Source of the DNA: Actinoplanes couchii
Lineage (GTDB): Bacteria; Actinomycetota; Actinomycetes; Mycobacteriales; Micromonosporaceae
Direction: 5' to 3'
Assembly: GCF_016862075.1 (NCBI RefSeq)
Contig: NZ_BOMG01000077.1
Span: 1 to 64,000 of the forward strand
Length of the DNA: 64,000 nucleotides
Shown here piece by piece: positions 28,037-55,326 of this stretch. The notes below the pieces were generated by a model. That model was given only the letters and a program-made list of their open reading frames with translations, did not search any database and had not been told where the DNA came from. The translations under genes were made by a program, and so were the position numbers. Position 1 is the first letter of the stretch. The number at the start of each line of letters is the position of its first letter.

Positions 28037-28696
28037 GGTCAGGGCCTCCGCGATCCGGGTCGATCCGGTGTTGAAGCTGATGGTGCGGCCGATCGTGGAC
28101 GGGTCGTGCAGGACCGCGAGCGTCACCGCCGCGACGTCGGCCCGGGACACCTCGCCGGGGGTGGCGCCCCGGGTGCCGGTCTCGATGCGGCCGGTGGCGG
28201 GGCCGTCGGTCAGTTTGCTCGGTGCGAGGATCGTCCAGGACAGGGCGGTGCCGGCCAGGTGGGTGTCGGCGGCGGCTTTCGCTTCCGCGTACGGAAAGAA
28301 GGGGTTGTCCTCGAGGATCCCGTGGCCGGGACCGGCGCCGAAGTAGGAGACCATCAGGTAGCGGCGCACGCCGGCCTGCTCCGCGGCCGCCATCGAGCGG
28401 ATCGCGGCATCCCGGTCCACCGCATACGTCCGCGCCGGGTCGCCGCCACCGGCCCCGGCCGACCAGATGATCGCGTCATGCCCGGCGAAGTGCCCGGCGA
28501 GCGTGTCGGCGTCGAGCCGCTCCACGTCGGCGACCAGCGGAATCGCGCCGGTCGCGGCCACCTCGGTGGCATGATCGGGATTGCGGATGACCGCGGTCAC
28601 CGCATGCCCCGCGCTGGTCAGCAACGGCACCAACAGCCGCGCCACTTTGCCATGCCCGCCGATGACCACGATGCGTTCCATCCACCCATTGTGCAT
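28022..28696 (-). CDS. NAD(P)-binding SDR-like (NmrA/YwnB-type) protein
   Basis: 224 residues. The N-terminal glycine motif VVIGGHGKVARLL, the strand IRNPD, and AGVRRYLMVSYFGA match atypical short-chain dehydrogenases that bind NAD(P) but often lack the full catalytic tetrad. Here YAEAKAAAD keeps the Tyr-x-x-x-Lys. GAGGGG lies eight bases before the ATG at 28696, which decides this start over the inner ATG at 28681. The role is unknown; redox or epimerase-like functions are typical. Confidence 0.8.
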   Translation of the reverse strand: MHNGWMERIVVIGGHGKVARLLVPLLTSAGHAVTAVIRNPDHATEVAATGAIPLVADVERLDADTLAGHFAGHDAIIWSAGAGGGDPARTYAVDRDAAIRSMAAAEQAGVRRYLMVSYFGAGPGHGILEDNPFFPYAEAKAAADTHLAGTALSWTILAPSKLTDGPATGRIETGTRGATPGEVSRADVAAVTLAVLHDPSTIGRTISFNTGSTRIAEALTSERG

Positions 28697-28744
28697 CCGG
28701 TAAACCCCTCAAATCGGGTCCAATGGTGCCGACCGGGAGCGGTG

Positions 28745-31700
28745 ATGACTACCACAGCTGCCTCGACGAATGCGGACCCCGACGTGGTCCGCGACCCGGC
28801 CCGTCTCGACGCGGTGGCGGCGACCGGGCTCATCGGCGGACCGCCGTCGCCCGTCCTCGACGAGATCACCGGGCTCGCCATGCGCCTGATCGGTGGCCGC
28901 GTCGCGCTGATGAACATGGTCGAGGGCGACCGGCAGAGCCACGTCAGCCTCAGTGGCCCGCCGCTCGGCCCCGGACTGCGCCAGGTCCCCCGTACCCACT
29001 CGTACTGCCAATATGTGGTGGCCGCCGGTGAGCCGCTGGTCGTCGGTGACGCCCGGGAACATCCGGTGCTGCGCAACAACCCGGCCATCGCCGCCTACCA
29101 GGCGGTCGCCTACCTGGGGGTTCCGGTCCGGTCGCCGAGCGGGCACGTGGTCGGGACGCTCTGCGTCTACGGCACCGAGCCGCGCTCCTGGCAGGAGTCC
29201 GACCTGGCGACACTGACCGCGCTGGCCACCGCCGCCGGCTCCGAGGTGGCCCGCCGGATGGCCGCCGACGAGACCGAACGTGGTCAGAGCGACGTGCGGT
29301 GGATGGTCGACGGCACCGGCGACGCGTTCGTGCAGACCGACTCGCAAGGCATGATCACCTGCTGGAACACGGCTGCCGAACGGATCTTCGGGCGCAGCGC
29401 GACCGACACCACCGGACAGCCCGCCGTCGAGATGATCATCGCGGCCGAGCAGCGCGACGTCTTCACCCACTGGATCACCGAACTCGGCAACCGGTCCTCC
29501 TGGACCCACCGCGAGTTCCTCGGTGTCCACCGGCAGGGCCGCCGCTTCCCGATCGAGATCTCCGCCGCCGTACGCAACCAGAACGGCGTCCCCACCACCT
29601 ACGCCTTCGTCCGCGACATCAGCCTGGTCCGGCGCCGCGAGCAACTGCGCCGCCTGGAGTACGCGGTCTCCGGAGCCCTGGCCGCCGCCGAGACCGCCGA
29701 ACACGCCGCCGAAGCCGTCGTCGCCCGGGTCGGCGAGGGCCTGATCTGGCCCTACGTCGAGTACTGGCACCTGGACCCGGACGGCGACGACCAACTGGTC
29801 CGTGTCGCCGACTGGTCCCGCGACAGCAAGACCACCACCCCCATGCGCAACACCCGGGAGTACGGCCGGGGCTGCGGCGTGGTCGACAAGGTCTTCCAGT
29901 CCCGGGCCGCCCGCTGGAGCACCGACCTGGCCAGCTCCGACACCACCCGCGCGCCCGCCGCCAAAGCCGCCGGGCTCAACACCGTCGTCGCCGTCCCGGT
30001 CCGCAACGGCCCCGACGTCGTCGGTGTCCTGGCCATCTTCGACAGGCGCGTCGTCGACCCCGAACCCGACCTGATGGCCGCCCTCGACTCGGTCGCCGCA
30101 CACATCGGCCAGTACGTGCACCGCCGCCGCGCCGTCGACCTGGAACTCGAACTCAGCCGCGCCCGCCGGCACTTCGACCAGATCGTGTCCAACCTCAGCG
30201 ACTTCCTGTGGACCGTCCGGATCACCTCCGACAGCGCCGTCCGCCTCGTCTACGCCAGCCCCAACAACACCGCCATCTTCGGCGGCCCCGCCCCCTCCGG
30301 CGGCGACCTCAGCCGCGCCATGGCGGCCATGATCCACCCGGACGACCGGGAGATCTTCCTGGACTTCCGGGACACCCTCACCTCCGGCGCCCCCGCCCAG
30401 GTCGCCTGCCGGCTGATCGGCGGCGACGGCGTCACCCGCTGGGTGTGGACCCGCGGCCAGCCCCGCCGGGAGAACGGTGTGCTCTACGTCGACGGCGTGT
30501 GCAGCGACGTCACCGACCGGCACCACGACAACACCCGGCTGCGCCAGCAGGCCGAACTGCTCGACCTCGCCCCGACCGCGGCGGTCATCGTGCGGGCCCT
30601 GGACGGGCGGATCACCTACTGGAACCGGGGGGCCGAACACGTCTACGGCTGGAACGCCGCCGCCGTCACCGGCCGGGGCATCCACAAACTCCTCGACACC
30701 CGCTTCCCCCTCGACCAGGAAGCCGTGGAACAACAGCTGCTCGCCACCGGGGAATGGTCCGGCGAACTCGACCACCTGCGCAGCGACGGCACCCGCATCG
30801 TCGTGCTCTCCCACCAGGGCGTGCAGTACGACGACGACGGCCAGCCGATCGCGTACCTCGAGGTCAACGTCGACGTCACCGCCCGCAAACAGGCCGAACG
30901 ACAGCTCGCCGACAGCGAGAAACGGCTGCGCACCCAGTTCTCCCTGGTCACCGTCGGGCAGGCGGCCCTCTCGCTGGACGGGCGGCTGCAACAGGTCAAC
31001 CCGGCGTTCGCCGAGATCCTCGGCCGGACCGTCGCCGACCTGGAAGGACGCACCCTCGACGAGATCACCCACCCCGACGACCGGGCCGAGAACGACCGCA
31101 CCGCCGCCTACATGTTCACCGAGGACCTGCCCACCGGCCGGTACCTGCGGCTGCTGCACACCGGCGGGCACGTCGTCGACGTGGAGATGGGCATGTCCCT
31201 GGTCCGCGACACCGACGGCCAGCCGGTCAGCTTCATCGCCGTCGTCCAGGACGTCACCGCACGCCTGGCCGCCGAACGCGAACGCGACGCCGCCGCCACC
31301 CTGCTCGGCATCCGCAACGACGAACTACAGGACATCAACAGCCGGCTCGCCGACGCCAATGCCCTCAAACTCGACCTGATGGGCATGCTCTCGCACGAGA
31401 TCGGCACACCCCTCAACACCATTGCCGGGTACGCCGAGGTCCTGCTCGCCGACACCGTCCACCTCAGCCCCGGCCAGCAGAAACCACTCGACGTGATCGC
31501 CCGCTCGGCGCGCCGGCTCAACCAGCTGCGCGCCGAGATCCTGGCCATGTGCACCATCGACGCCGACCGCCTGCAGGCCAGCCCGGAGCCGGTCCCGCTG
31601 GCGGCGGCGCTCGCCGACACCCTCACCGGGCTCGACCTCGACGTCCCGGTGACCTGCCCCGGCGACCTGGTGGCCCTGGTGCACCCCAGCCACCTACAGC

Positions 31701-32008
31701 AGATCGTCACCAACTTCTGCACCAACGCCGCCAAGTACGCCGGTGGGGTCACCCGGATCACCGCCGAGCGCCGTGCCGAACGGGCGATCATCGCCGTGCA
31801 CGACGACGGGCCCGGGATCTCGCCGGAACTGCGGCCGGCCCTGTTCGACAGGTTCACCCGGGCCACCGGGAACGACCCGTCGATCCAGGGGCACGGACTC
31901 GGCCTCTACATCGTCCGCGGGCTCGCCGAAGCCAACGGCGGTGTCGTCGGCTATCAGGCGGGGCAGCCGGTGGGCAGCATTTTCACGCTGTCGTTGCCGG
32001 CTCTTTGA
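28745..32008 (+). CDS. Large soluble multi-sensor histidine kinase (GAF-PAS-GAF-PAS-PAS-PAS-HK)
   Basis: 1087 residues, no membrane helix. Approximate order: GAF (20-170), PAS (185-300), GAF (305-460), PAS (475-600), PAS (605-720), PAS (725-845), coiled coil, HisKA (about 875) and HATPase (960-1087). The phospho-His motif is [12 protein letters not shown], with Gly where Arg is usual. The N box is NFCTNAAKY, and DDGPGIS and GHGLGLYIV complete the ATPase site. The GAF domains carry [15 protein letters not shown] features of light or redox-linked proteins, but no chromophore Cys could be assigned. No response regulator is adjacent, so it is an orphan kinase. GGGAG precedes ATG 28745. Confidence 0.92.
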
Positions 32009-33975: not shown

Positions 33976-34120
33976 TGATCAGTCAGGGTGCGCGTCTGCC
34001 TCGCCTGATCGGTTGGGGTGTGCGCCTGTTTCACCTGATCTGTTGGGGTATGCGTGTATATCGCCCGATCTGTCTGGGTGTGCGTCTGCCTCGTCTGATC
34101 AGTCGGGGTGTGCGTTTGCG
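33971..34120. repeat. 30-bp minisatellite, 5 copies
   Basis: Five contiguous, diverged 30-base units of the form TCGYCTGATCNGTYGGGGTGTGCGYCTGCC at 33971, 34001, 34031, 34061 and 34091. The unit is ten codons. The last unit covers the final codons and stop (34099) of the MerR-HEAT gene; the other four trail behind it. Units differ at several positions, so the array is old. Confidence 0.92.
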
Positions 34121-35190
34121 CGCAGGGTCAGCACGTAGGTGGCGGTGAGAGCGACAGCCCGATCGCTGTCGGCTGACAGTTCGGTCAGGGCTCGGGTTGC
34201 GGCTTCGCCGGGGATGTCTGCCAGTGCCTGTGTCAGCCGTTGCCGGGCCGCCGCCCGGCCGCGGTCCGGAGTTCCCTCCGCCAGGCGGGCCTTGATCTCG
34301 GCTATGCGGCCGCTGAGGACATCGGTGATCCGGTCCGCCATGACCGGATCGGCGGCCAGCGCTCCCAGTGCGTCGGCGGCATCGGCGTCGCTGGTGTTCG
34401 CGACGATCATGCCGACCAGGGTGGGGATCGCCCCGTCCGCGCCCCGCGCGCCCAGAGCCACCGCCGCGTGCCGCCGGACCGCGGCATCGGAGTTGGTGAG
34501 CGCATCCTGGAGTTGCGCAGTGGCCTCCTCGGCCGGGAACTCGGCGATGGTCAGAACGGCCCGTTTCCGCACCGCCCCCGAGGAATCCCGGAGCCCGGCC
34601 GCCAGAAGTGCCAGAGCGTCCTCCCCGCTCCGCGCCCCTGCCCGACTCCCCTCCGGATCGCCGATCTGATCCCCCAGCTGGACCAGCGCCCAGCGCAGGG
34701 CGCCGGCCACGTTCGGGTCCGATTCGGTCAGGACCGCTTCCACCAGGGCTTCCACCGGCATCGGGACGTCCTCGGCTGCGGACATCGCTGCCTGCTGGCG
34801 GCGGCCGGGGTTGTCCGATCCCAGGGCCTGCAGCAGCGACACGATCTGGAGCACGTCCTCCCAGCCGGCCGCACCGGCCACGCCGATCTGCTGCAACCTG
34901 GTGAGCAGCCTGGTCTCGTCGGCGATTCGCTCCCGGGTTCGGGTGATCAGCTCGCTGACCAGTTCGGCCGGGTCGAACGCGGGATCGTCCAGCGCCCGGC
35001 CGGCCTCTTTCAGCGACAGCCCCAGTGACCGCAGGCTCTCGATGTGGAAGATCCGGCGGATGTCGTCGCTGGAATACTCCCGGTAGCCCGACCCGGTCCG
35101 GCCGGTCGGCTGGACCAGCCCGATCGAGTCGTAGTGCCGCAACATGCGGGCACTGACCCCGGACCGTCGTGCCACATCTCCGATCAACAC
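34099..35190 (-). CDS. MerR-family regulator fused to HEAT repeats
   Basis: 363 residues. The N-terminal 75 residues form a MerR helix-turn-helix: IGDVARRSGVSARMLRHYDS, then GYREYSSDDIRRI. A coiled coil follows (about 80-110). From about 125 to the end are HEAT/PBS-lyase-like repeats with patterns such as DSSGAVRKRAVLTIAEF and SDAAVRRHAAVALGA, which in other proteins bind partner proteins. GTG 35190 was chosen because homology starts there and AGGAGG lies 12 bases upstream; an ATG nearer the AGGAGG is out of frame. It lies next to a second HEAT protein that may be its partner or target. Confidence 0.82.
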   Translation of the reverse strand: MLIGDVARRSGVSARMLRHYDSIGLVQPTGRTGSGYREYSSDDIRRIFHIESLRSLGLSLKEAGRALDDPAFDPAELVSELITRTRERIADETRLLTRLQQIGVAGAAGWEDVLQIVSLLQALGSDNPGRRQQAAMSAAEDVPMPVEALVEAVLTESDPNVAGALRWALVQLGDQIGDPEGSRAGARSGEDALALLAAGLRDSSGAVRKRAVLTIAEFPAEEATAQLQDALTNSDAAVRRHAAVALGARGADGAIPTLVGMIVANTSDADAADALGALAADPVMADRITDVLSGRIAEIKARLAEGTPDRGRAAARQRLTQALADIPGEAATRALTELSADSDRAVALTATYVLTLRANAHPD

Positions 35191-35469
35191 GAACCCATGG
35201 TCCCTCCTGAACCGAGCCCACCGGTCACCGCCGGCCCCAACGGCACGCCGGGACATTGCCCTGTCGCTGAGGAAGGGCTGCGCGACGACGCGGCGGGATC
35301 ACGCGATCCGCTCGCCGTTTCCGCTGGTGGGAATCGGACTTCCCTTGTCGGGCACCATCGTGGAAGAAGCGTGCGGTGCCTCCGGGAGCGATGGGAGACC
35401 GCCTGACGATGCGGCGGGCCGGGGTGTTGCGGCAGACCGGAGTAGAGCGCCTGGCTCTTCACCCGGGTG

Positions 35470-46530: not shown

Positions 46531-46582
46531 AATGTAAAGACTGTTGCGAGTAGTGGCACCTTTTCCCCCGGAGGATCCCCCT

Positions 46583-47824
46583 ATGCGCAAACTACGCATG
46601 CTGCTCGGCATAGCCGTGGTCGCGACCACGCTCGCCGGTGCGCTGACCGTCGCGTCCCGCGGTGATACCGCGGACGCCGCGGTCGGCCCGGTCACCTGGT
46701 CCGACGAGTTCAACGGCGCGGCCGGCGCCCCGGTCGACGGCTCGAAGTGGAACTTCGACATCGGCGGTGGCGGCTTCGGCAACAACGAGCTGCAGTACTA
46801 CACGAACTCGACCAACAACGTGCGGCAGGACGGGCAGGGCCGCCTGGCGATCACCGCCCGCAAGGAGAACCCGAACAACTACCAGTGCTGGTACGGGACC
46901 TGCCAGTACACCTCGGGCCGACTGCTGACCTCCGGCAAGTTCACCCAGAAGTACGGCCGTTTCGAAGCCAGCATCAAGGTGCCGAAGGGCCAGGGCATCT
47001 GGCCGGCGTTCTGGATGCTCGGCGACAACCTGGGCAGTGTCGGCTGGCCGCAGTCCGGCGAGATCGACATCATGGAGAACGTCGGCAAGGAGCCGAACAA
47101 CCTGTACGGCACGGTCCACGGCCCCGGTTACAGCGGCGGCGCGGGGATCAGCGGCAAGAAGACGCTCGGCGCCCCGCTCGGGGACGCCTTCCACTCGTAC
47201 GCGGTGGAATGGTCGCCGAATCTGATCGTCTGGCAGTTGGACGGCGTCGAGTTCTTCCGTGTCACGCCGGCCCAGGCCAACGGCCAGTGGGTCTTCGACC
47301 ACCCGTTCTTCATCATCCTGAACGTGGCCGTCGGCGGTAACTGGCCGGGCAGCCCGGACGCCTCCACCTCGTTCCCGCAGACCATGCTGGTCGACTGGGT
47401 GCGCGTCTCGGCCTGGGACGGCAACACCACCCCCACGCCGACCGGCAGCGCGCTGAAGAGCAACCTCAACGGCCGCTGCATCGACATCCCGTCCGGCAAC
47501 ACCGCGGACGGAACCCGGCTGCAGATGTACGACTGCAACGGTCTCGCCCCGCAGAAGTGGACCTTCAACAGCGACGGCACGCTGCGCGCGATGGGCAAGT
47601 GCATGGACCCGGCCGGTGGGGCGCTCGCCAACGGCACCCCGATCCAGCTGGTCACCTGCAACGGCAACCCGGTGCAGCGGTTCACCCTGTCCGGCGCCGG
47701 TGACCTGGTGAACATCTCCGCCAACCGGTGCGTGGACATCGTCGAGAACAACAGCGCCAACGGCGCCCGTCTCCAGCTGTGGGATTGCGCCGGAACAGCG
47801 AACCAGAAGTGGAAGGTGGCCTGA
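46583..47824 (+). CDS. Secreted GH16 endo-beta-1,3-glucanase with CBM13
   Basis: 413 residues. Signal peptide about 1-33. GH16 domain 36-285 with the catalytic motif GEIDIMENVG (nucleophile E160, D162, acid/base E165). A short TPTPTG linker leads to a ricin-type CBM13 (about 295-413) with three degenerate QxW repeats (QKW, QRF, QKW) and paired Cys residues. It cleaves laminarin-like beta-1,3-glucan, while the lectin module anchors it to polysaccharide. GGAGG precedes the ATG at 46583. Confidence 0.94.
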   Translation: MRKLRMLLGIAVVATTLAGALTVASRGDTADAAVGPVTWSDEFNGAAGAPVDGSKWNFDIGGGGFGNNELQYYTNSTNNVRQDGQGRLAITARKENPNNYQCWYGTCQYTSGRLLTSGKFTQKYGRFEASIKVPKGQGIWPAFWMLGDNLGSVGWPQSGEIDIMENVGKEPNNLYGTVHGPGYSGGAGISGKKTLGAPLGDAFHSYAVEWSPNLIVWQLDGVEFFRVTPAQANGQWVFDHPFFIILNVAVGGNWPGSPDASTSFPQTMLVDWVRVSAWDGNTTPTPTGSALKSNLNGRCIDIPSGNTADGTRLQMYDCNGLAPQKWTFNSDGTLRAMGKCMDPAGGALANGTPIQLVTCNGNPVQRFTLSGAGDLVNISANRCVDIVENNSANGARLQLWDCAGTANQKWKVA

Positions 47825-49048: not shown

Positions 49049-52000
49049 TCACTCCCCGCCGACGGTCACCCCGGCGTCGGTGGCCTCCGAGTCGGTCAGC
49101 ACCACCCGGTTCCGGCCGCCCTGCTTGGCCTGGTAGAGCGCCGCGTCGGCGGCGCCCAGGGCGGCGTCCAGCGCGGTCGACGACGGGTCGGCCGGGCAGA
49201 CCCCGACACTGACCGTCACGGTCAGCGGGCCGACGTCGGTCGGGATCGGGGTGCCGGTGACCGCCTTGCGCAGCCGCTCGGCGGCGACCGCCCGGTCCCC
49301 GTCGGCCGACCAGACCGCGGCGAACTCCTCGCCGCCGTACCGGCCCAGCTCGCCGTCGGCCGGCAGCGCGTCGCGCAGACGGGCCGCCACGGTGGCGATC
49401 ACCTGGTCACCGGCCTGGTGACCGTGCTGGTCGTTGATCTTCTTGAAGTGGTCGATGTCGATCATGACCGCGACGAAGCCCCGGCCCTCCTCGACGGCGT
49501 CCGCGTGCGCCTGCTGCGCGACGGTGAAGAAGTGCCGCCGGTTGCTGACCCCGGTCAGGGCGTCGGTGGTGGCCATGTACCGGACCTGCGCGAACAGGTC
49601 GGCGTTGTGATAGGCCATCATCGCCTCCTCGGCGATGGCCGCCGCCAGGGTGATCTCGGTCGGCCCGAACTCCTCCGGCCCGGCCAGGACCACCAGCCCC
49701 ACCTGCGTCTCCTGCCGGTGCAGCGGCACCACCAGGTGCCTCTTCGCCGGGTCCAGGAACGGCAGGTGCAGGTGGCCCACGGTCAGCGGGCCCGGGGCGG
49801 CCAGGAGCTGGTTCAGCACCGGGGTCCGCTCCAGCGCACCCGTCACCCCCGGCTCCGGGCCGGTCAGGTCACCGTCGTCGGAAGCCGTGATCAGGTAGGT
49901 GGAGTCCGCCGTCAGCACCCGGGCGAGCGTGTCGCGCAGCTCGTCCAGGATCGCCGCCGGCTCCAGCAGCCGGCTGAATCTGATCAGCGACTCGCGCAGC
50001 GTCTCGGCCATGTCCCGCTGCTGCTCGGCGGCCCGGACGGCCACCGCCAGCTGGGCGGCCCGGGCGGTCTCCACCGCCGCGGCCACGTACTGCGTGATCG
50101 CGGTGAGGATCCCGACGTCGGCCGAGGTGAACATGCCCTTGGCGACCCGGCTGTCCAGGTAGACCACGCCCAGCAGCCGGCCGTCCATCACCAGCGGGGC
50201 GGCCATGATGCTGCGCAGACCGTGCAGGACCACACTCTGCGAGCCGAGCGCCGCGCCCTCCTCGGTGCCGGTCACCACGACCGGCTTGCCGGTGTGCCGC
50301 ACCCGGTCCACGATCGTGGAACCGTAGTCGGTGAGCACCTCCAGGTCGTCACCGCCGGCGTCGCGTCCGCTGTGCGGCTGCAGGACGTCGGACTCGTCCA
50401 TCAGGAACAGGTAGGCCCGTTCGGCGTTCAGGATCAGCACCGTCTCGTCCAGCACGGCCCGGCTCAGCTCGTCCAGGCGTACCACGCCGGAGAGAGTGCG
50501 GCTGAGCCGTTCCAGAGCGCCCAGCCGGCGCCGGTCGGCGGCGCCGCCGTCGATCACCGAGGCCTGGCTGGTCTGCCCGGCGGTCAGCCCGAACTCCTGC
50601 CGGACCGCCCGGGCGACCCGGGCCTGCCCGAGCTGGTCGGCGAGCCGGCCCGCGGCCTCGGCCAGGGTGGCCGCCTCCTCGGTGTGGTCACCCTCGTCGG
50701 CGATCCGGGCCCGCAGCACCATCATCGACATCGCCATGCCCGGCAGGTCGTCGCCGGCCAGCTGCTCGTCGGCCCGGGCCAGCTGCCGCTGGACGTCACC
50801 GGTGGACAGCCACGCCAGGTGGGCCGCGGCGACCGCGTGGTGCGCGGCCAGCTGCCGGCCGGCGCCCCGGCCCCGGTCGGCGGCGTCCCGCAGCTGCCGG
50901 ACCGCCTTACGGGCGGCGGCCAGCGCCGTGGGCCGCTGCTCCGGCGTCGCGGTGCGCAGCTGCTCGATCCGGCCGAAGGCCAGCGTCGAGTAGACCACCC
51001 GCAGCGCGGACGCCACCGCGGTCGGCCGCAGTCCCAGCCGGGCCATCTCGTCCGCGGCCCGGTCGAAGGTGCTGCCGTAGTCGTGCAGCTCCCGGCAGAT
51101 CTCCACCGCGCCGACCAGGCTCATCAGGCGTGAACCGGGGTCGTCCGCGGCCGGGTCGGCGTGGTCCAGCAACTCGGTGGCGTCGTCGATGGTCGGCGGG
51201 CGGCCGCCGATCCAGGACAGCCCGCGGATCCGGCCGGTCGGGTTGTCCGACTGGTCCGAGCGCCACACGTGGTCCATGCCGTCGGTGATCGCCGCCCGCA
51301 TCGGGATGACCCGGCCCTGCAGGAACCAGCGCGCGCTGAGGGACAGCGCGTAGTTCAGGTTCTCGGTGGTGTCCAGCAGACCGCCGTGCCGCTGCAGCCA
51401 GCGCTGGTACTCGTCGAGGTCGGGACGGCCGCTCTGGGTCTCGCAGAGCCGCCGCAGGTACTCGACGTAGACCAGGGCGGCCGGCTGACCGACCTCCTCG
51501 GCGATCCGCTGCGCGCGGGCGAACGCCCGGGGCGCCGGCCGGCGGGTGATCGCGTGCTTGATGGCGGCGTTGTGCGCGGCCTGCCGGGCGTACTCGGGGG
51601 TGAGACCCATCCGGGCCGCCACGTAGCGGGCCCGCATCTCGTAGCCGATCATCGTGCGCGGACGGGTGGCCAGCAGCGCCGCGTAGGCGCCGGCCGCGTA
51701 CAGGGCGTACCGCTGCCGGTACCGCGCCAGCTTCTCCTCGTCCTCGGTGCCGAAGCCCATCCTCGTACGCTCGACGAGCACCGCCGCGAGCAGATAGGCG
51801 ATCCCGGTGACCAGGCCGACGACACCGCCGCCCAGGCTGGACAGCCCGAGCGCGGCCAGGCCCTTGCCGGTCTCCTCCATCGCCGCGGTGAGCTGCCAGT
51901 TGCCCAGGTTGAGCTGGGCCAGCCGGCGGTGCAGCCGGGACCGGACCGCGGCGTCACCGGTGGCCTCCAGCGCCACCGCGTACCGCTGCCGGGCCTCCTC

Positions 52001-54178
52001 GCTCCGCCCGGTCTGCGCGTAGGCCATGCCCAGCGCCTCGGTCCAGGCCACGTCGGTGTCCGAGTCGGCGTCCAGATACGGCTCGGCGGCCTCGAGGAAC
52101 CCGATCGCGTCGGTCCCGGCGTGCTCCTCCAGCGCGGCGTGCGCCGCCGCCAGACAGACCCGGGTGGTACGGGCGGTGTCCAGCTCCGGGTGGCCCTGCA
52201 GCAGGTGCCGGGCCTCGGCGTAACTCGACGTCGCCTCGTCGGCGGCCCGCTGGTGCAGGTCGCGCAGCTTGTCCGGGTCCAGGTCGGCGAGCAGCGCGCG
52301 GTGCACCTGCTCGTGGACGAACCCGTACCCGTCGCCGTTGCGTTCCAGCAGCCCCTGGCCGACGGCGGCCTCGCAGCTGGCCCGGACCAGTTCGGCGTCG
52401 GCCCCGGCGATCCGGGCGACCTGCTCCGGGTCGAAGTGGAAACCGGCGACCGCGGCGGTGGCCAGCAGGTCCCGGCCCTGGTCGCCGAGCCCGTCGATCC
52501 GCTCCAGCAGCAGGCCGGCCAGGTCGGTGGGGATGTCGATGCGCTGGAACCCGTCGGCGTCTACGTCGACCTTGCCGTTGCGCGGGAACAGCAGGCCGGC
52601 CTCGATCGCGGCGCGGGCCAGCATCAGCGCGGTCAGCGGCAGGCCGTTGGCCCGGGCGCCGAGCCGGTCCAGCAGCTCGTCGGTGAGCGGGTACCCGCCG
52701 GTGTAGGTGGCCAGCAGCCGGGCCAGGGCGGCCCGGTCCATCGGCCGCAGGTGCAGGGTGAGCGCCTCCGAACCGGCCCATGCGGCGTCGTTCGGGAGCT
52801 GCCCCTCGCTCGCCTCGTCGGCCTCGGTGTCCAGGGTGGCGACGATCAGCAGCGGGGTGGTGCTGCTCTGGGTCAGCTGGCGCAGCATCTGCAGGGTGGC
52901 CACGTCCAGCCACTGGGCGTTGTCCAGGGCCAGGACCAGCCCGCCGGTCTGCTCGGCCAGGTCACCCATGAACGCGGTGACCGCCATCATGAAGGCGGAA
53001 CCGCCGTCACCGGCGCCGAAGATGTCGCGCAGCGCGGGGGAGAGCCGGCCCAGGTAGGCCGCGGCGTCCCCGGCCGCGGCCTGGACCAGCTCCGGCCCGG
53101 ACTGCTCCAGATGGGTGTCGAAGATCCGGGACAGCACGGCCAGCGGCGCGTCGCCGGGACGGCACTCGCCGCGCAGCACGGTCACCCCGGCGTTCTCCAG
53201 GCGGCCGGTGAACTCGCGCAGCAGCCGGGTGCGGCCGGAACCGGCGCCGCCCCGGACGACGGCGGCCCGGCAGTGGTCGGAGGTCTCTCCCCACAGGGCG
53301 GCCAGCTCGGCGATCTCGGCGTCCCGGCCGACCATCGGGATCTCCGGCCGGTGCACCGGCTCGTCGTTCTCGGCGATCTCGAAGACCGCGTCCGGGTCGT
53401 CGGCGATCCGGCGCAGGTCGGCGGCGAGACCGGTGGCGCCGGCGTACCTGTCGTCCGGGTCCTTGGCCAGCAGCCGGTTCACCACCGCGGTCAGGGTGGC
53501 GGGCAGGTCCCGGTCCAGCTTCGGCACCGCGACGGTGTGCTGGCGCAGCAGCTCGCCGGCGTCGGTGGCCTGGAACGGCGGGTGCCCGGTCAGGCACTCG
53601 AACAGCACGATGCCCAGGGCGTACAGGTCGCTGCGGGCGTCCACCGGGCGCTGCAGGGTGCCGTTCTGCTCCGGCGGGGCGTATGTCAGGGTGCCGGCGA
53701 CGGCCTCCCCGCTCTGCTGCCCCGACCAGGTCGCGAAGCCCAGGTCGACCAGACGGGCGGCGCCGTCCGGGCTGATGATGATGTTGTCCGGTTTGATGTC
53801 GCGGTGCACGACCCCGGTCAGGTGCATGACGTTCAGCGCGTCGGCGACGTCCGCGGCGATCTCGGCGGCGCGCGCCGGGCTCAGCGGGCCGGAGCGCAGC
53901 ACGTCACCCAGGTGTTCGCCGTCGACGAACTCCATCACCAGGTACGGCTGGCCGTCGGTCTCGCCGGTGTCGTACACCTCGGGCAGGCCCGGGTGCCGGC
54001 AGGCGGCCATCCACGTCGCCTCCCGGCGCAGCCGGGCACGTCCGGACGGGTCCAGCAGTATCTTGACTGCCACATCGGTGCCGTCGGCACGACGGGCACG
54101 ATGCACGACGCTCTGCCCGCCCCGGCCGATAGCCTGGAACGCGCTGAGGCCCGGGACGACCGGACTGGGTTCTGTCAC
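49049..54178 (-). CDS. Ser/Thr kinase - AAA ATPase - TPR-like - GAF - GAF - GGDEF diguanylate cyclase
   Basis: 1709 residues, no membrane helix certain. Kinase domain (about 11-270): Lys39 in VAVK, HRDIKPDN at 125-132 with catalytic D127, and DLG (145-147) in place of DFG. An AAA_16/STAND-type ATPase follows (about 280-660; Walker A region GGAGSGRTRL, Walker B-like LVLALDNAQW). A long helical TPR-like region (about 660-1170) comes next, then GAF (about 1200-1350), coiled coil, a second GAF-like domain (about 1385-1540) and GGDEF (about 1550-1705) with GGEEF at 1615-1619. The autoinhibitory RxxD site is replaced by PADG. It should make cyclic di-GMP under control of kinase, nucleotide and ligand inputs. 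It starts with GTG and has a weak ribosome site. Confidence 0.9.
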   Translation of the reverse strand: MTEPSPVVPGLSAFQAIGRGGQSVVHRARRADGTDVAVKILLDPSGRARLRREATWMAACRHPGLPEVYDTGETDGQPYLVMEFVDGEHLGDVLRSGPLSPARAAEIAADVADALNVMHLTGVVHRDIKPDNIIISPDGAARLVDLGFATWSGQQSGEAVAGTLTYAPPEQNGTLQRPVDARSDLYALGIVLFECLTGHPPFQATDAGELLRQHTVAVPKLDRDLPATLTAVVNRLLAKDPDDRYAGATGLAADLRRIADDPDAVFEIAENDEPVHRPEIPMVGRDAEIAELAALWGETSDHCRAAVVRGGAGSGRTRLLREFTGRLENAGVTVLRGECRPGDAPLAVLSRIFDTHLEQSGPELVQAAAGDAAAYLGRLSPALRDIFGAGDGGSAFMMAVTAFMGDLAEQTGGLVLALDNAQWLDVATLQMLRQLTQSSTTPLLIVATLDTEADEASEGQLPNDAAWAGSEALTLHLRPMDRAALARLLATYTGGYPLTDELLDRLGARANGLPLTALMLARAAIEAGLLFPRNGKVDVDADGFQRIDIPTDLAGLLLERIDGLGDQGRDLLATAAVAGFHFDPEQVARIAGADAELVRASCEAAVGQGLLERNGDGYGFVHEQVHRALLADLDPDKLRDLHQRAADEATSSYAEARHLLQGHPELDTARTTRVCLAAAHAALEEHAGTDAIGFLEAAEPYLDADSDTDVAWTEALGMAYAQTGRSEEARQRYAVALEATGDAAVRSRLHRRLAQLNLGNWQLTAAMEETGKGLAALGLSSLGGGVVGLVTGIAYLLAAVLVERTRMGFGTEDEEKLARYRQRYALYAAGAYAALLATRPRTMIGYEMRARYVAARMGLTPEYARQAAHNAAIKHAITRRPAPRAFARAQRIAEEVGQPAALVYVEYLRRLCETQSGRPDLDEYQRWLQRHGGLLDTTENLNYALSLSARWFLQGRVIPMRAAITDGMDHVWRSDQSDNPTGRIRGLSWIGGRPPTIDDATELLDHADPAADDPGSRLMSLVGAVEICRELHDYGSTFDRAADEMARLGLRPTAVASALRVVYSTLAFGRIEQLRTATPEQRPTALAAARKAVRQLRDAADRGRGAGRQLAAHHAVAAAHLAWLSTGDVQRQLARADEQLAGDDLPGMAMSMMVLRARIADEGDHTEEAATLAEAAGRLADQLGQARVARAVRQEFGLTAGQTSQASVIDGGAADRRRLGALERLSRTLSGVVRLDELSRAVLDETVLILNAERAYLFLMDESDVLQPHSGRDAGGDDLEVLTDYGSTIVDRVRHTGKPVVVTGTEEGAALGSQSVVLHGLRSIMAAPLVMDGRLLGVVYLDSRVAKGMFTSADVGILTAITQYVAAAVETARAAQLAVAVRAAEQQRDMAETLRESLIRFSRLLEPAAILDELRDTLARVLTADSTYLITASDDGDLTGPEPGVTGALERTPVLNQLLAAPGPLTVGHLHLPFLDPAKRHLVVPLHRQETQVGLVVLAGPEEFGPTEITLAAAIAEEAMMAYHNADLFAQVRYMATTDALTGVSNRRHFFTVAQQAHADAVEEGRGFVAVMIDIDHFKKINDQHGHQAGDQVIATVAARLRDALPADGELGRYGGEEFAAVWSADGDRAVAAERLRKAVTGTPIPTDVGPLTVTVSVGVCPADPSSTALDAALGAADAALYQAKQGGRNRVVLTDSEATDAGVTVGGE

Positions 54179-54384
54179 ATGCCGGACGATCGGTCGCTTC
54201 GGCCGGGACCTGAACCTTTCGGCCCAGCTCCTGTTCCGGGCCCCTTGCGAGTGAACATCTTGTCATCTGACCCGGGGTGTACGGGCGGAAACCGCCGATC
54301 GACGGCTGTTCGCCGGGGTGCGCGGTCCCGGGCGGTGGGTGCCCTGCCCCGGCGGGGGATGCTCTGGGACGTTACGGTGCCGTT

Positions 54385-55326
54385 GTGGGGGAACGGATCC
54401 GGGAACACGCCGAGCATCTCGACGTGCTGCGAGTCCGTCTCGGGCGGATCGGGGAGACGGTCGCCCGGTTCGAGCAGGACCAGGCGGCGTTCGGGCGGCT
54501 CGTCGGGTGGGTCCTGACCGGGCTGGGGGAGCGGCACGTCCGGCACGGGGAGCTGGTGGAGTACGTCGAGGAGACCCTCGCGCTGTTCGTCAGCGGGCTG
54601 CACCGGGTCGCCGACGGGCAGCAGACCCTCGCCGATCTGATCGGGATACCGGAGGACGGCGGGCCCCAGCCCGAGCCGGAGTCCCGTTCCCGGCCGGCCG
54701 CCGCGATCATCGAGGACGTCCTGGAGACGGTCGAGCTGCGCGAGTGGGTGGAACCGGCGCTGGAGACGGCCCCGGTGGCCGAGTTCGCGCTCCCGGTCGA
54801 GGACGGGTTCGCGCTGCTGCGGTCGGCCGGGCTGGACAGCGTGCTGGACACCGTCGAACCGCTGCGCCGGATGCTCGACGACCTGACCGGCATGCCCGAG
54901 GTGGTGGCCAAGCAGGCCGGCGACTGGGGTGCGATGGCCGCCGAGCTGCAGCGGATCGGCGACGACCTGGAGCGCTGCCTGGCCGGGGACCTCGGCGACG
55001 TGGACCGGGCGGACGTACGCGCCTACCTGGCGATGATGGCCAACAACGTGGAGGCGCTGCGCGGGCTGTCGGCGATCTCCTCGGCGATGACGATGGTGAC
55101 CCGGGCCGCGGGGGATCTGGTCCTGCTGACCCGGGACATCGTACGCGGCGTGATCGGCGATCTGGCGGCCCGGACGATCGTCTGGTCCACCCAGACCACG
55201 GTGGTGCCGTTGCCGGTGCTGGCGGCCCGGCTGGGCAGCGTGGTGGCCACCGCCTGGCGGGTCGACGCCTACCTGAAGGCCCTGGTGAACAGCATCGTCA
55301 ACCTGTCCCGCAGCATCGACGGCTGA
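54385..55326 (+). CDS. Helical WXG100/ESX-effector-like protein
   Basis: 313 residues. The N-terminal 85 residues form long amphipathic helices (ERIREHAEHLDVLRVRLGRI and following). A linker rich in Pro/Glu follows, then helices and a C-terminal stretch with hydrophobic segments (ARTIVWSTQTTVVPLPVLAA, SVVATAWRVDAYLKALVNSI). The pattern resembles WXG100-superfamily or type VII secretion substrates, but no WxG or YxxxD/E motif is certain. GTG 54385 is inferred; the ribosome site is poor. It is divergent from the kinase-GGDEF gene across a 206-base spacer with no clear dyad. Confidence 0.5.
   Translation: MGERIREHAEHLDVLRVRLGRIGETVARFEQDQAAFGRLVGWVLTGLGERHVRHGELVEYVEETLALFVSGLHRVADGQQTLADLIGIPEDGGPQPEPESRSRPAAAIIEDVLETVELREWVEPALETAPVAEFALPVEDGFALLRSAGLDSVLDTVEPLRRMLDDLTGMPEVVAKQAGDWGAMAAELQRIGDDLERCLAGDLGDVDRADVRAYLAMMANNVEALRGLSAISSAMTMVTRAAGDLVLLTRDIVRGVIGDLAARTIVWSTQTTVVPLPVLAARLGSVVATAWRVDAYLKALVNSIVNLSRSIDG

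Follow-up and report, generated by a model that had tools for sequence, protein, structure and literature searches.

Several described proteins join a Ser/Thr kinase to a second signalling output. The accessible part of a 2005 paper (PMC1262709) reports, with a comment on shared downstream signalling, a Clostridium thermocellum protein of 1826 residues (gi 23020879) that carries a kinase, six TPRs and a GGDEF domain, and also lists a protein with a kinase and a MalT-like part. Proteins with kinase, GAF and HisKA domains are listed in the part of PMC2176072 that was available to us, and the STAND scheme in the accessible portion of PMC4381067 names PknK as a Ser/Thr kinase STAND and allows effectors at either end of the molecule. 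In Streptomyces, cyclic di-GMP (c-di-GMP) acts on development via BldD, and the table for S. venezuelae in the excerpt consulted shows no kinase fusion (PMC6205966). Here we describe a protein of 1709 residues encoded by Actinoplanes couchii within positions 1 to 64,000 of contig NZ_BOMG01000077.1 (assembly GCF_016862075.1), a stretch of 64,000 nucleotides referred to below as the window. The protein carries a kinase at one end, a diguanylate cyclase domain at the other and a STAND-like part between them, and we lean, with some reserve, towards reading it as a two-ended STAND signalling enzyme.

Domain organization of the kinase-cyclase gene

The gene runs on the minus strand from a GTG start codon at 54178 to 49049, in a genome assembled as 11.46 Mb in 199 contigs, and its guanine plus cytosine (GC) content at third codon positions (0.96, in a window of 70% GC) follows the pattern of a real gene. 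All domains reported by Pfam score over the curated cut-offs: Pkinase (residues 14-246, E 3.7e-42), AAA_16 (282-446, E 5.1e-24), GAF in two stretches (E 1.4e-20) and GGDEF (1536-1691, E 1.1e-38). From the N to the C terminus the order is kinase, AAA_16, helical repeats, GAF, GAF and GGDEF, and because this complete order is found again in relatives, a chance fusion is excluded. A preliminary description of this DNA had claimed that one frame joins a kinase, a STAND-like ATPase, two GAF domains and a diguanylate cyclase; the Pfam scan and the predicted folds agree with it, the kinase and GGDEF regions both being homologous to their families, and the long helical repeat zone that it had noted is modelled as a TPR superhelix. 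The features are as follows.

49049..54178, minus strand: entire gene, 1709 residues, GTG start at 54178
53393..54139, minus strand: PknB-like Ser/Thr kinase domain, residues 14-262 (Pfam; PknB structure match by sequence)
53777..53812, minus strand: catalytic loop VVHRDIKPDNII, residues 123-134, with D127 (sequence and family alignment)
53738..53746, minus strand: DLG at the DFG position, residues 145-147 (sequence and family alignment)
53690..53737, minus strand: short activation loop, residues 148-163 (to G162-T163), with acidic E158 (loop comparison)
52841..53335, minus strand: AAA_16 nucleotide-binding domain of the STAND module, residues 282-446 (Pfam, predicted fold)
53228..53251, minus strand: variant Walker A motif, GGAGSGRT, with Arg in place of Lys at 316, residues 310-317 (sequence and family alignment)
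52286..52396, minus strand: predicted winged-helix part, about residues 595-631 (model residues 326-362, placed by eye from secondary structure; matches to MalT 8bob and STAND 6mfv)
50582..52177, minus strand: predicted TPR superhelix that presumably acts as the sensor, about residues 668-1199 (predicted fold; TPR chains match)
50039..50497, minus strand: GAF1, the most conserved domain, residues 1228-1380 (Pfam, model, domain identities)
49619..49996, minus strand: GAF2, divergent, residues 1395-1520 (Pfam, model, domain identities)
49088..49591, minus strand: GGDEF diguanylate cyclase domain, residues 1530-1697 (Pfam, model, structure match)
49322..49336, minus strand: GGEEF active-site motif, residues 1615-1619 (sequence and family alignment)
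49352..49363, minus strand: PADG where the inhibitory RxxD site would lie, residues 1606-1609 (sequence and family alignment)

Family spread and joint inheritance of the domains

Our surveys of the order, of single genomes per species and of the class show a family that is frequent among Actinoplanes-like genera and of scattered occurrence outside them. Among 40 genomes of the order (own included), 24 match at E 1e-60, and in 21 of the 23 congeners (all except G008 and G022) the match covers residues 16-1692 or more, the best match of each lying in a stop-free frame of at least 1722 residues. Some congeners (G004, G013) have several copies, and the 16 other genomes of the order yielded two copies in G035 and a partial match in G036. 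Scanning one genome per species with GAF1 patterns matched 167 stretches, 127 of which are relatives; the best 80 of these 127 come from, among others, Micromonosporaceae, Planomonospora, Kineosporia, Pseudofrankia and metagenome-assembled genomes of Acidimicrobiales. Across the class, 7 of 197 drawn genomes, A. couchii being one of the seven, have a GAF1 match at E 1e-25; five of the remaining six were inspected (L132-L136), and the domain order in these is unchanged. Plasmids gave no match at E 1e-50. The closest relative with a species name is that of Actinoplanes utahensis (L124), 55% identical in the species scan and 58% over 1602 columns.

The preliminary description had proposed a survey of how common this architecture is, and the 80 loci reveal a conserved family: kinase, AAA, TPR, GAF1 and GGDEF stand in one frame in 76 of them, counting L112, which is cut at both ends. 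The remaining four are cut at the 5' end (L069, L089) or the 3' end (L114), or have a frame that stops inside GAF2 (L072). With GAF1 as an anchor outside the kinase and GGDEF, no output swapping within the close family was seen in the 80 loci.

Residue conservation was followed in 90 non-redundant sequences, drawn mostly from Micromonosporaceae (77 and 29 pooled, any sharing a 400-residue stretch removed), and changes were placed on a FastTree tree whose long branches meet one another. Mean pairwise identity is 0.62 for GAF1, 0.56 for GGDEF, 0.54 for the kinase, 0.41 for AAA and 0.32 for GAF2. Distances correlate for every pair of domains (r 0.66-0.94, the best of 200 permutations reaching at most 0.13), in part through the phylogeny common to all domains, and we conclude that the domains travelled together.

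The kinase end

PknB is the closest solved kinase by sequence (E 1.1e-52). The motif HRDIKPDN with its catalytic Asp D127, already recognized in the preliminary description, indeed lies at residues 125-132, and it is accompanied by K39 (the VAVK Lys), E53 (the helix C Glu), N132 and D145, as expected of a Hanks-type kinase, with Leu replacing the Phe of DFG. Among the 90 members D127, N132 and D145 are kept in all, K39 in 87, K129 in 81 and E53 in 78 (Gln in 10), and the Lys of HRDxK is replaced by Thr, Ala or Ser in 9. The substitution of DLG for DFG, put forward earlier as a distinguishing detail, is real but not unusual, since 5 of the 90 members have it, with three changes at the DFG position on the tree.

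The activation loop is commonly acidic. Position 158 is Asp or Glu in 70/90 members and Ser, Thr or Tyr in 3/90, the corresponding counts at position 157 being 48/90 and 15/90. The loop pattern fitted 86 members, four lying outside it; in 81 of the 86 loops an acidic residue occupies one of the two positions that precede the conserved Gly by four or five residues, and Ser or Thr still occurs somewhere within the last eight loop residues in 45. Control loops from kinases of the same genome (L002-L006, L008) have Thr in the last eight residues in 8 of 8 listings, equal to six distinct loops, which are the whole of this control, L007 falling outside the pattern. The phospho-Thr residues of PknB are located in the same stretch. 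The contrast between the acidic family loop and the Thr of the control loops suggests that the kinase is independent of activation-loop phosphorylation.

The GAF-GAF-GGDEF end

The AlphaFold model of residues 1222-1705, built with 39 relatives, has a mean predicted local distance difference test score of 90.8 and predicts, in order, GAF1, a 51-residue helix, GAF2, a 32-residue helix and GGDEF. Its best PDB matches are bacteriophytochrome diguanylate cyclases, a tandem-GAF adenylyl cyclase being also among the matches, and on this predicted fold the C terminus is a tandem-GAF diguanylate cyclase. The active site comprises GGEEF and the metal-binding Asp and substrate residues (D1574, N1582, D1583), and the listed GGDEF residues are kept in 89 or 90 of the 90 members. 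PADG does stand where an RxxD inhibitory site would be, as had been pointed out together with the prediction that product inhibition should be absent, but this is not unusual either: RxxD is present in 56/90 members and absent in 34/90, and its presence changes nine times on the tree. Given these frequencies, PADG and DLG are both variation within the family; a missing RxxD suggests, but does not prove, a lack of product inhibition. Near residues 1308-1318 GAF1 has a conserved yet poorly modelled stretch that could be a ligand lid.

That the state of the kinase and ATPase controls c-di-GMP output, as first proposed, is plausible and would fit the conserved active sites at both ends. The same conservation would suit an arrangement with a single input sensed by the scaffold and two parallel outputs, phosphorylation of other proteins by the kinase and c-di-GMP synthesis by the cyclase, and the possibility of STAND effectors at either end would favour it as well. 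We consider such independent outputs rather unlikely; the search beside the relatives revealed neither a substrate of the kinase nor a linked gene, although absence of linkage is weak evidence.

The predicted STAND middle

The middle of the protein is predicted to fold into a nucleotide domain, a winged helix and a TPR superhelix, nearest to a STAND-TPR protein (6mfv) and to MalT (8bob). The model thus has the nucleotide-binding domain, winged helix and repeat sensor of a STAND protein and upholds the earlier STAND assignment, by fold only and not as a working ATPase. In place of the Walker A consensus GxxxxGK[ST] the protein has GGAGSGRT; Lys is found in 54/90 members and Arg in 36/90, including this one, the Arg being inherited in one deep clade and in the protein's own clade, with four changes on the tree. 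Walker B reads LALDN, and its Asp is kept in 88/90.

An Arg inherited in this way might indicate that the altered P-loop does not cycle and that the kinase is a phosphorylation-driven switch, the autophosphorylated GAF and coil region alone setting the cyclase; the place of the kinase among the slowest-evolving domains, compared with AAA, would agree. The retention of the Walker A Lys in most members and of the Walker B Asp in nearly all, together with a predicted STAND fold that includes the winged helix, speaks against this explanation, which we likewise consider rather unlikely.

Paralogues and wider relatives with other outputs

Three paralogues in the same genome keep the scaffold, with altered kinase loops: P0002, kinase-AAA_16-GGDEF (HRDLSPAN); P0003, kinase-AAA_16-GAF-GGDEF (HKNITPAA); and P0004, kinase-AAA_16-GAF-HisKA-HATPase (HRDITPAN), the C terminus of the L040 protein being HisKA-HATPase.

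L038:3698-8536, L039:4532-9124, L040:5792-10855: three paralogues of the same genome with altered kinase loops and GGDEF or histidine-kinase outputs

Two further relatives in this genome end at contig edges (L042, L043), and a LuxR-type protein has AAA and TPR in common with the kinase-cyclase. Outputs vary among the wider relatives: L044 ends in a LuxR helix-turn-helix, and in G036 a protein of 1972 residues (L138:4396-10311) continues the kinase-AAA_16-TPR-GAF scaffold with PAS-GGDEF-EAL and could both make and break c-di-GMP. The A. couchii genome also gave very many GGDEF matches, an uncounted many among 148 matches.

The altered loops of the paralogues and, in the protein itself, the Arg of Walker A and the Asn of Walker B could be taken to mean that it is an ordinary tandem-GAF diguanylate cyclase with the kinase and STAND parts as decaying passengers. 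This is very improbable, as the HRD Asp, the Asn and the DFG Asp are kept throughout the family and all domains evolve together; furthermore, of the 39 GAF1 matches obtained at E 1e-25 from 40 genomes, 38 belong to frames 1721-2014 residues long and one to a frame of 596.

A proposed mechanism

The reading of the protein as a two-ended STAND signalling enzyme is built on observed domains, predicted folds, conserved active sites and joint inheritance, from which we infer an order of events, oligomerization, ligands, c-di-GMP production and phosphorylation targets. The resting protein would keep its nucleotide domain and winged helix closed. Binding of a ligand or a partner to the TPR superhelix would open the switch and cause several copies to assemble in the manner of MalT, bringing the GAF-coil-GAF-coil-GGDEF chains together as dimers. 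GGDEF domains make c-di-GMP as dimers, and a ligand of GAF1 would tune the dimeric cyclase. The same assembly would switch the N-terminal kinase, with its complete active site and no conserved activation-loop phospho-Thr, which would then phosphorylate its own protein, other substrates or both. A more far-reaching version, which we hold only tentatively, is an actinobacterial STAND family built like immune receptors, where assembly switches both c-di-GMP synthesis and a kinase constitutively primed by acidic residues in place of phospho-Thr, one molecule writing both signals.

Several points weigh against a two-ended STAND enzyme. The Walker A Arg and the DN of Walker B may mean that nucleotide binding or hydrolysis is weak and the STAND cycle altered, and the helix C Gln and the replaced HRDxK Lys that kinases are weak in some members. 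Full-length superposition of the C-terminal model on 5llw is poor (template modelling score 0.41, root-mean-square deviation 16), the fit being limited to parts. We found no experiment on any family member in the literature, and the neighbouring genes offer little clue to ligands.

Neighbouring genes

Downstream of the kinase-cyclase gene, and convergent to it, lie a VanY-like peptidase gene and then one for a GH16/ricin-B protein (46544-47824, plus strand). The divergent neighbour, 98 bases away, encodes a protein of 349 residues (54277-55326, plus strand) with no Pfam match, which by eye resembles a WXG-type helical protein, and is followed by an MFS gene. Seven window neighbours were compared with the relatives' loci by tblastn at E 1e-5 (L001 excluded), with visible flanks of about 1.5 kb in some loci and, for loci of the species scan, of at most about 3 kb, some ended by contig edges. 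Within these flanks the 349-residue protein has no copy beside the relatives. It has relatives in 18/18 genus genomes searched (own included), with two to nine matches each, and the three closest (G010, G014, G007; 62-66%) are located away from kinase-cyclase genes; we therefore reject it as a conserved partner, and the earlier idea that it might be a target found no support. The GH16/ricin-B protein has a 63% identical copy at L058:10292-11446, in 1 of the 80 loci, and in both places it lies downstream of the kinase-cyclase gene in convergent orientation, at a distance of about 2 kb or less, which may be chance or old linkage. Otherwise, L084 gave weak matches to the lectin part only and L090 a short LysR match. 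Elsewhere in the window, one frame joins a MerR DNA-binding domain to HEAT repeats (34099-35256, minus strand), and another encodes a histidine kinase of 1300 residues with several PAS and GAF domains (28106-32008, plus strand).

Comparison with known systems

Open-access literature, to which our search was confined, yielded no study of a kinase-STAND-GAF-GAF-GGDEF family, and the accessible parts of PMC2877116 and PMC7159879 contain no description of a kinase-STAND-GGDEF family. If the coupling is true, Ser/Thr phosphorylation and STAND switching would be linked directly to c-di-GMP in filamentous actinomycetes, and the protein would be a STAND whose activation is readable by a simple enzyme assay.

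The bacteriophytochrome diguanylate cyclase 5llw and the tandem-GAF adenylyl cyclase 1ykd likewise connect a GAF-containing input to a cyclase through helices, although overall superposition is poor, and to our knowledge neither has a kinase or STAND part. The TOMM kinase/cyclase fusion (TIGR03903) by its name combines a kinase with a nucleotide cyclase in one protein; its match to the 1709-residue protein scores 178.5 bits, under the curated cut-off of 705.75, with the kinase as the best stretch. MalT-type STAND proteins (MalT and Mycobacterium tuberculosis PknK) have the same scaffold of nucleotide-binding domain, winged helix, arm and TPR, and PknK is itself a kinase STAND; MalT, however, bears a DNA-binding domain where our protein has GAF-GAF-GGDEF, and the available part of PMC4381067 names no GGDEF for PknK. 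HstK-type dual kinases of cyanobacteria (kinase-GAF-HisKA) likewise carry a signalling output behind a kinase and a GAF domain, in their case a histidine kinase and not GGDEF, as far as the accessible part of PMC2176072 goes. The Pfam scan of our protein contains no HisKA or HATPase; it is the paralogue P0004 that resembles the HstK-type output. The C. thermocellum protein has the same N-terminal kinase, TPRs and C-terminal GGDEF, but the available part of PMC1262709 names no AAA or GAF, and the comparison is by description and not by sequence. This protein and the kinase-GAF-HisKA proteins (PMC1262709, PMC2176072, in the parts available) run counter to novelty of the fusion in general: the wider kinase-GGDEF fusion theme is not new, and the 1709-residue protein varies it. 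What is new here is the Walker A Arg in 36/90 members and an acidic activation loop where the six control loops of the same genome have Thr.
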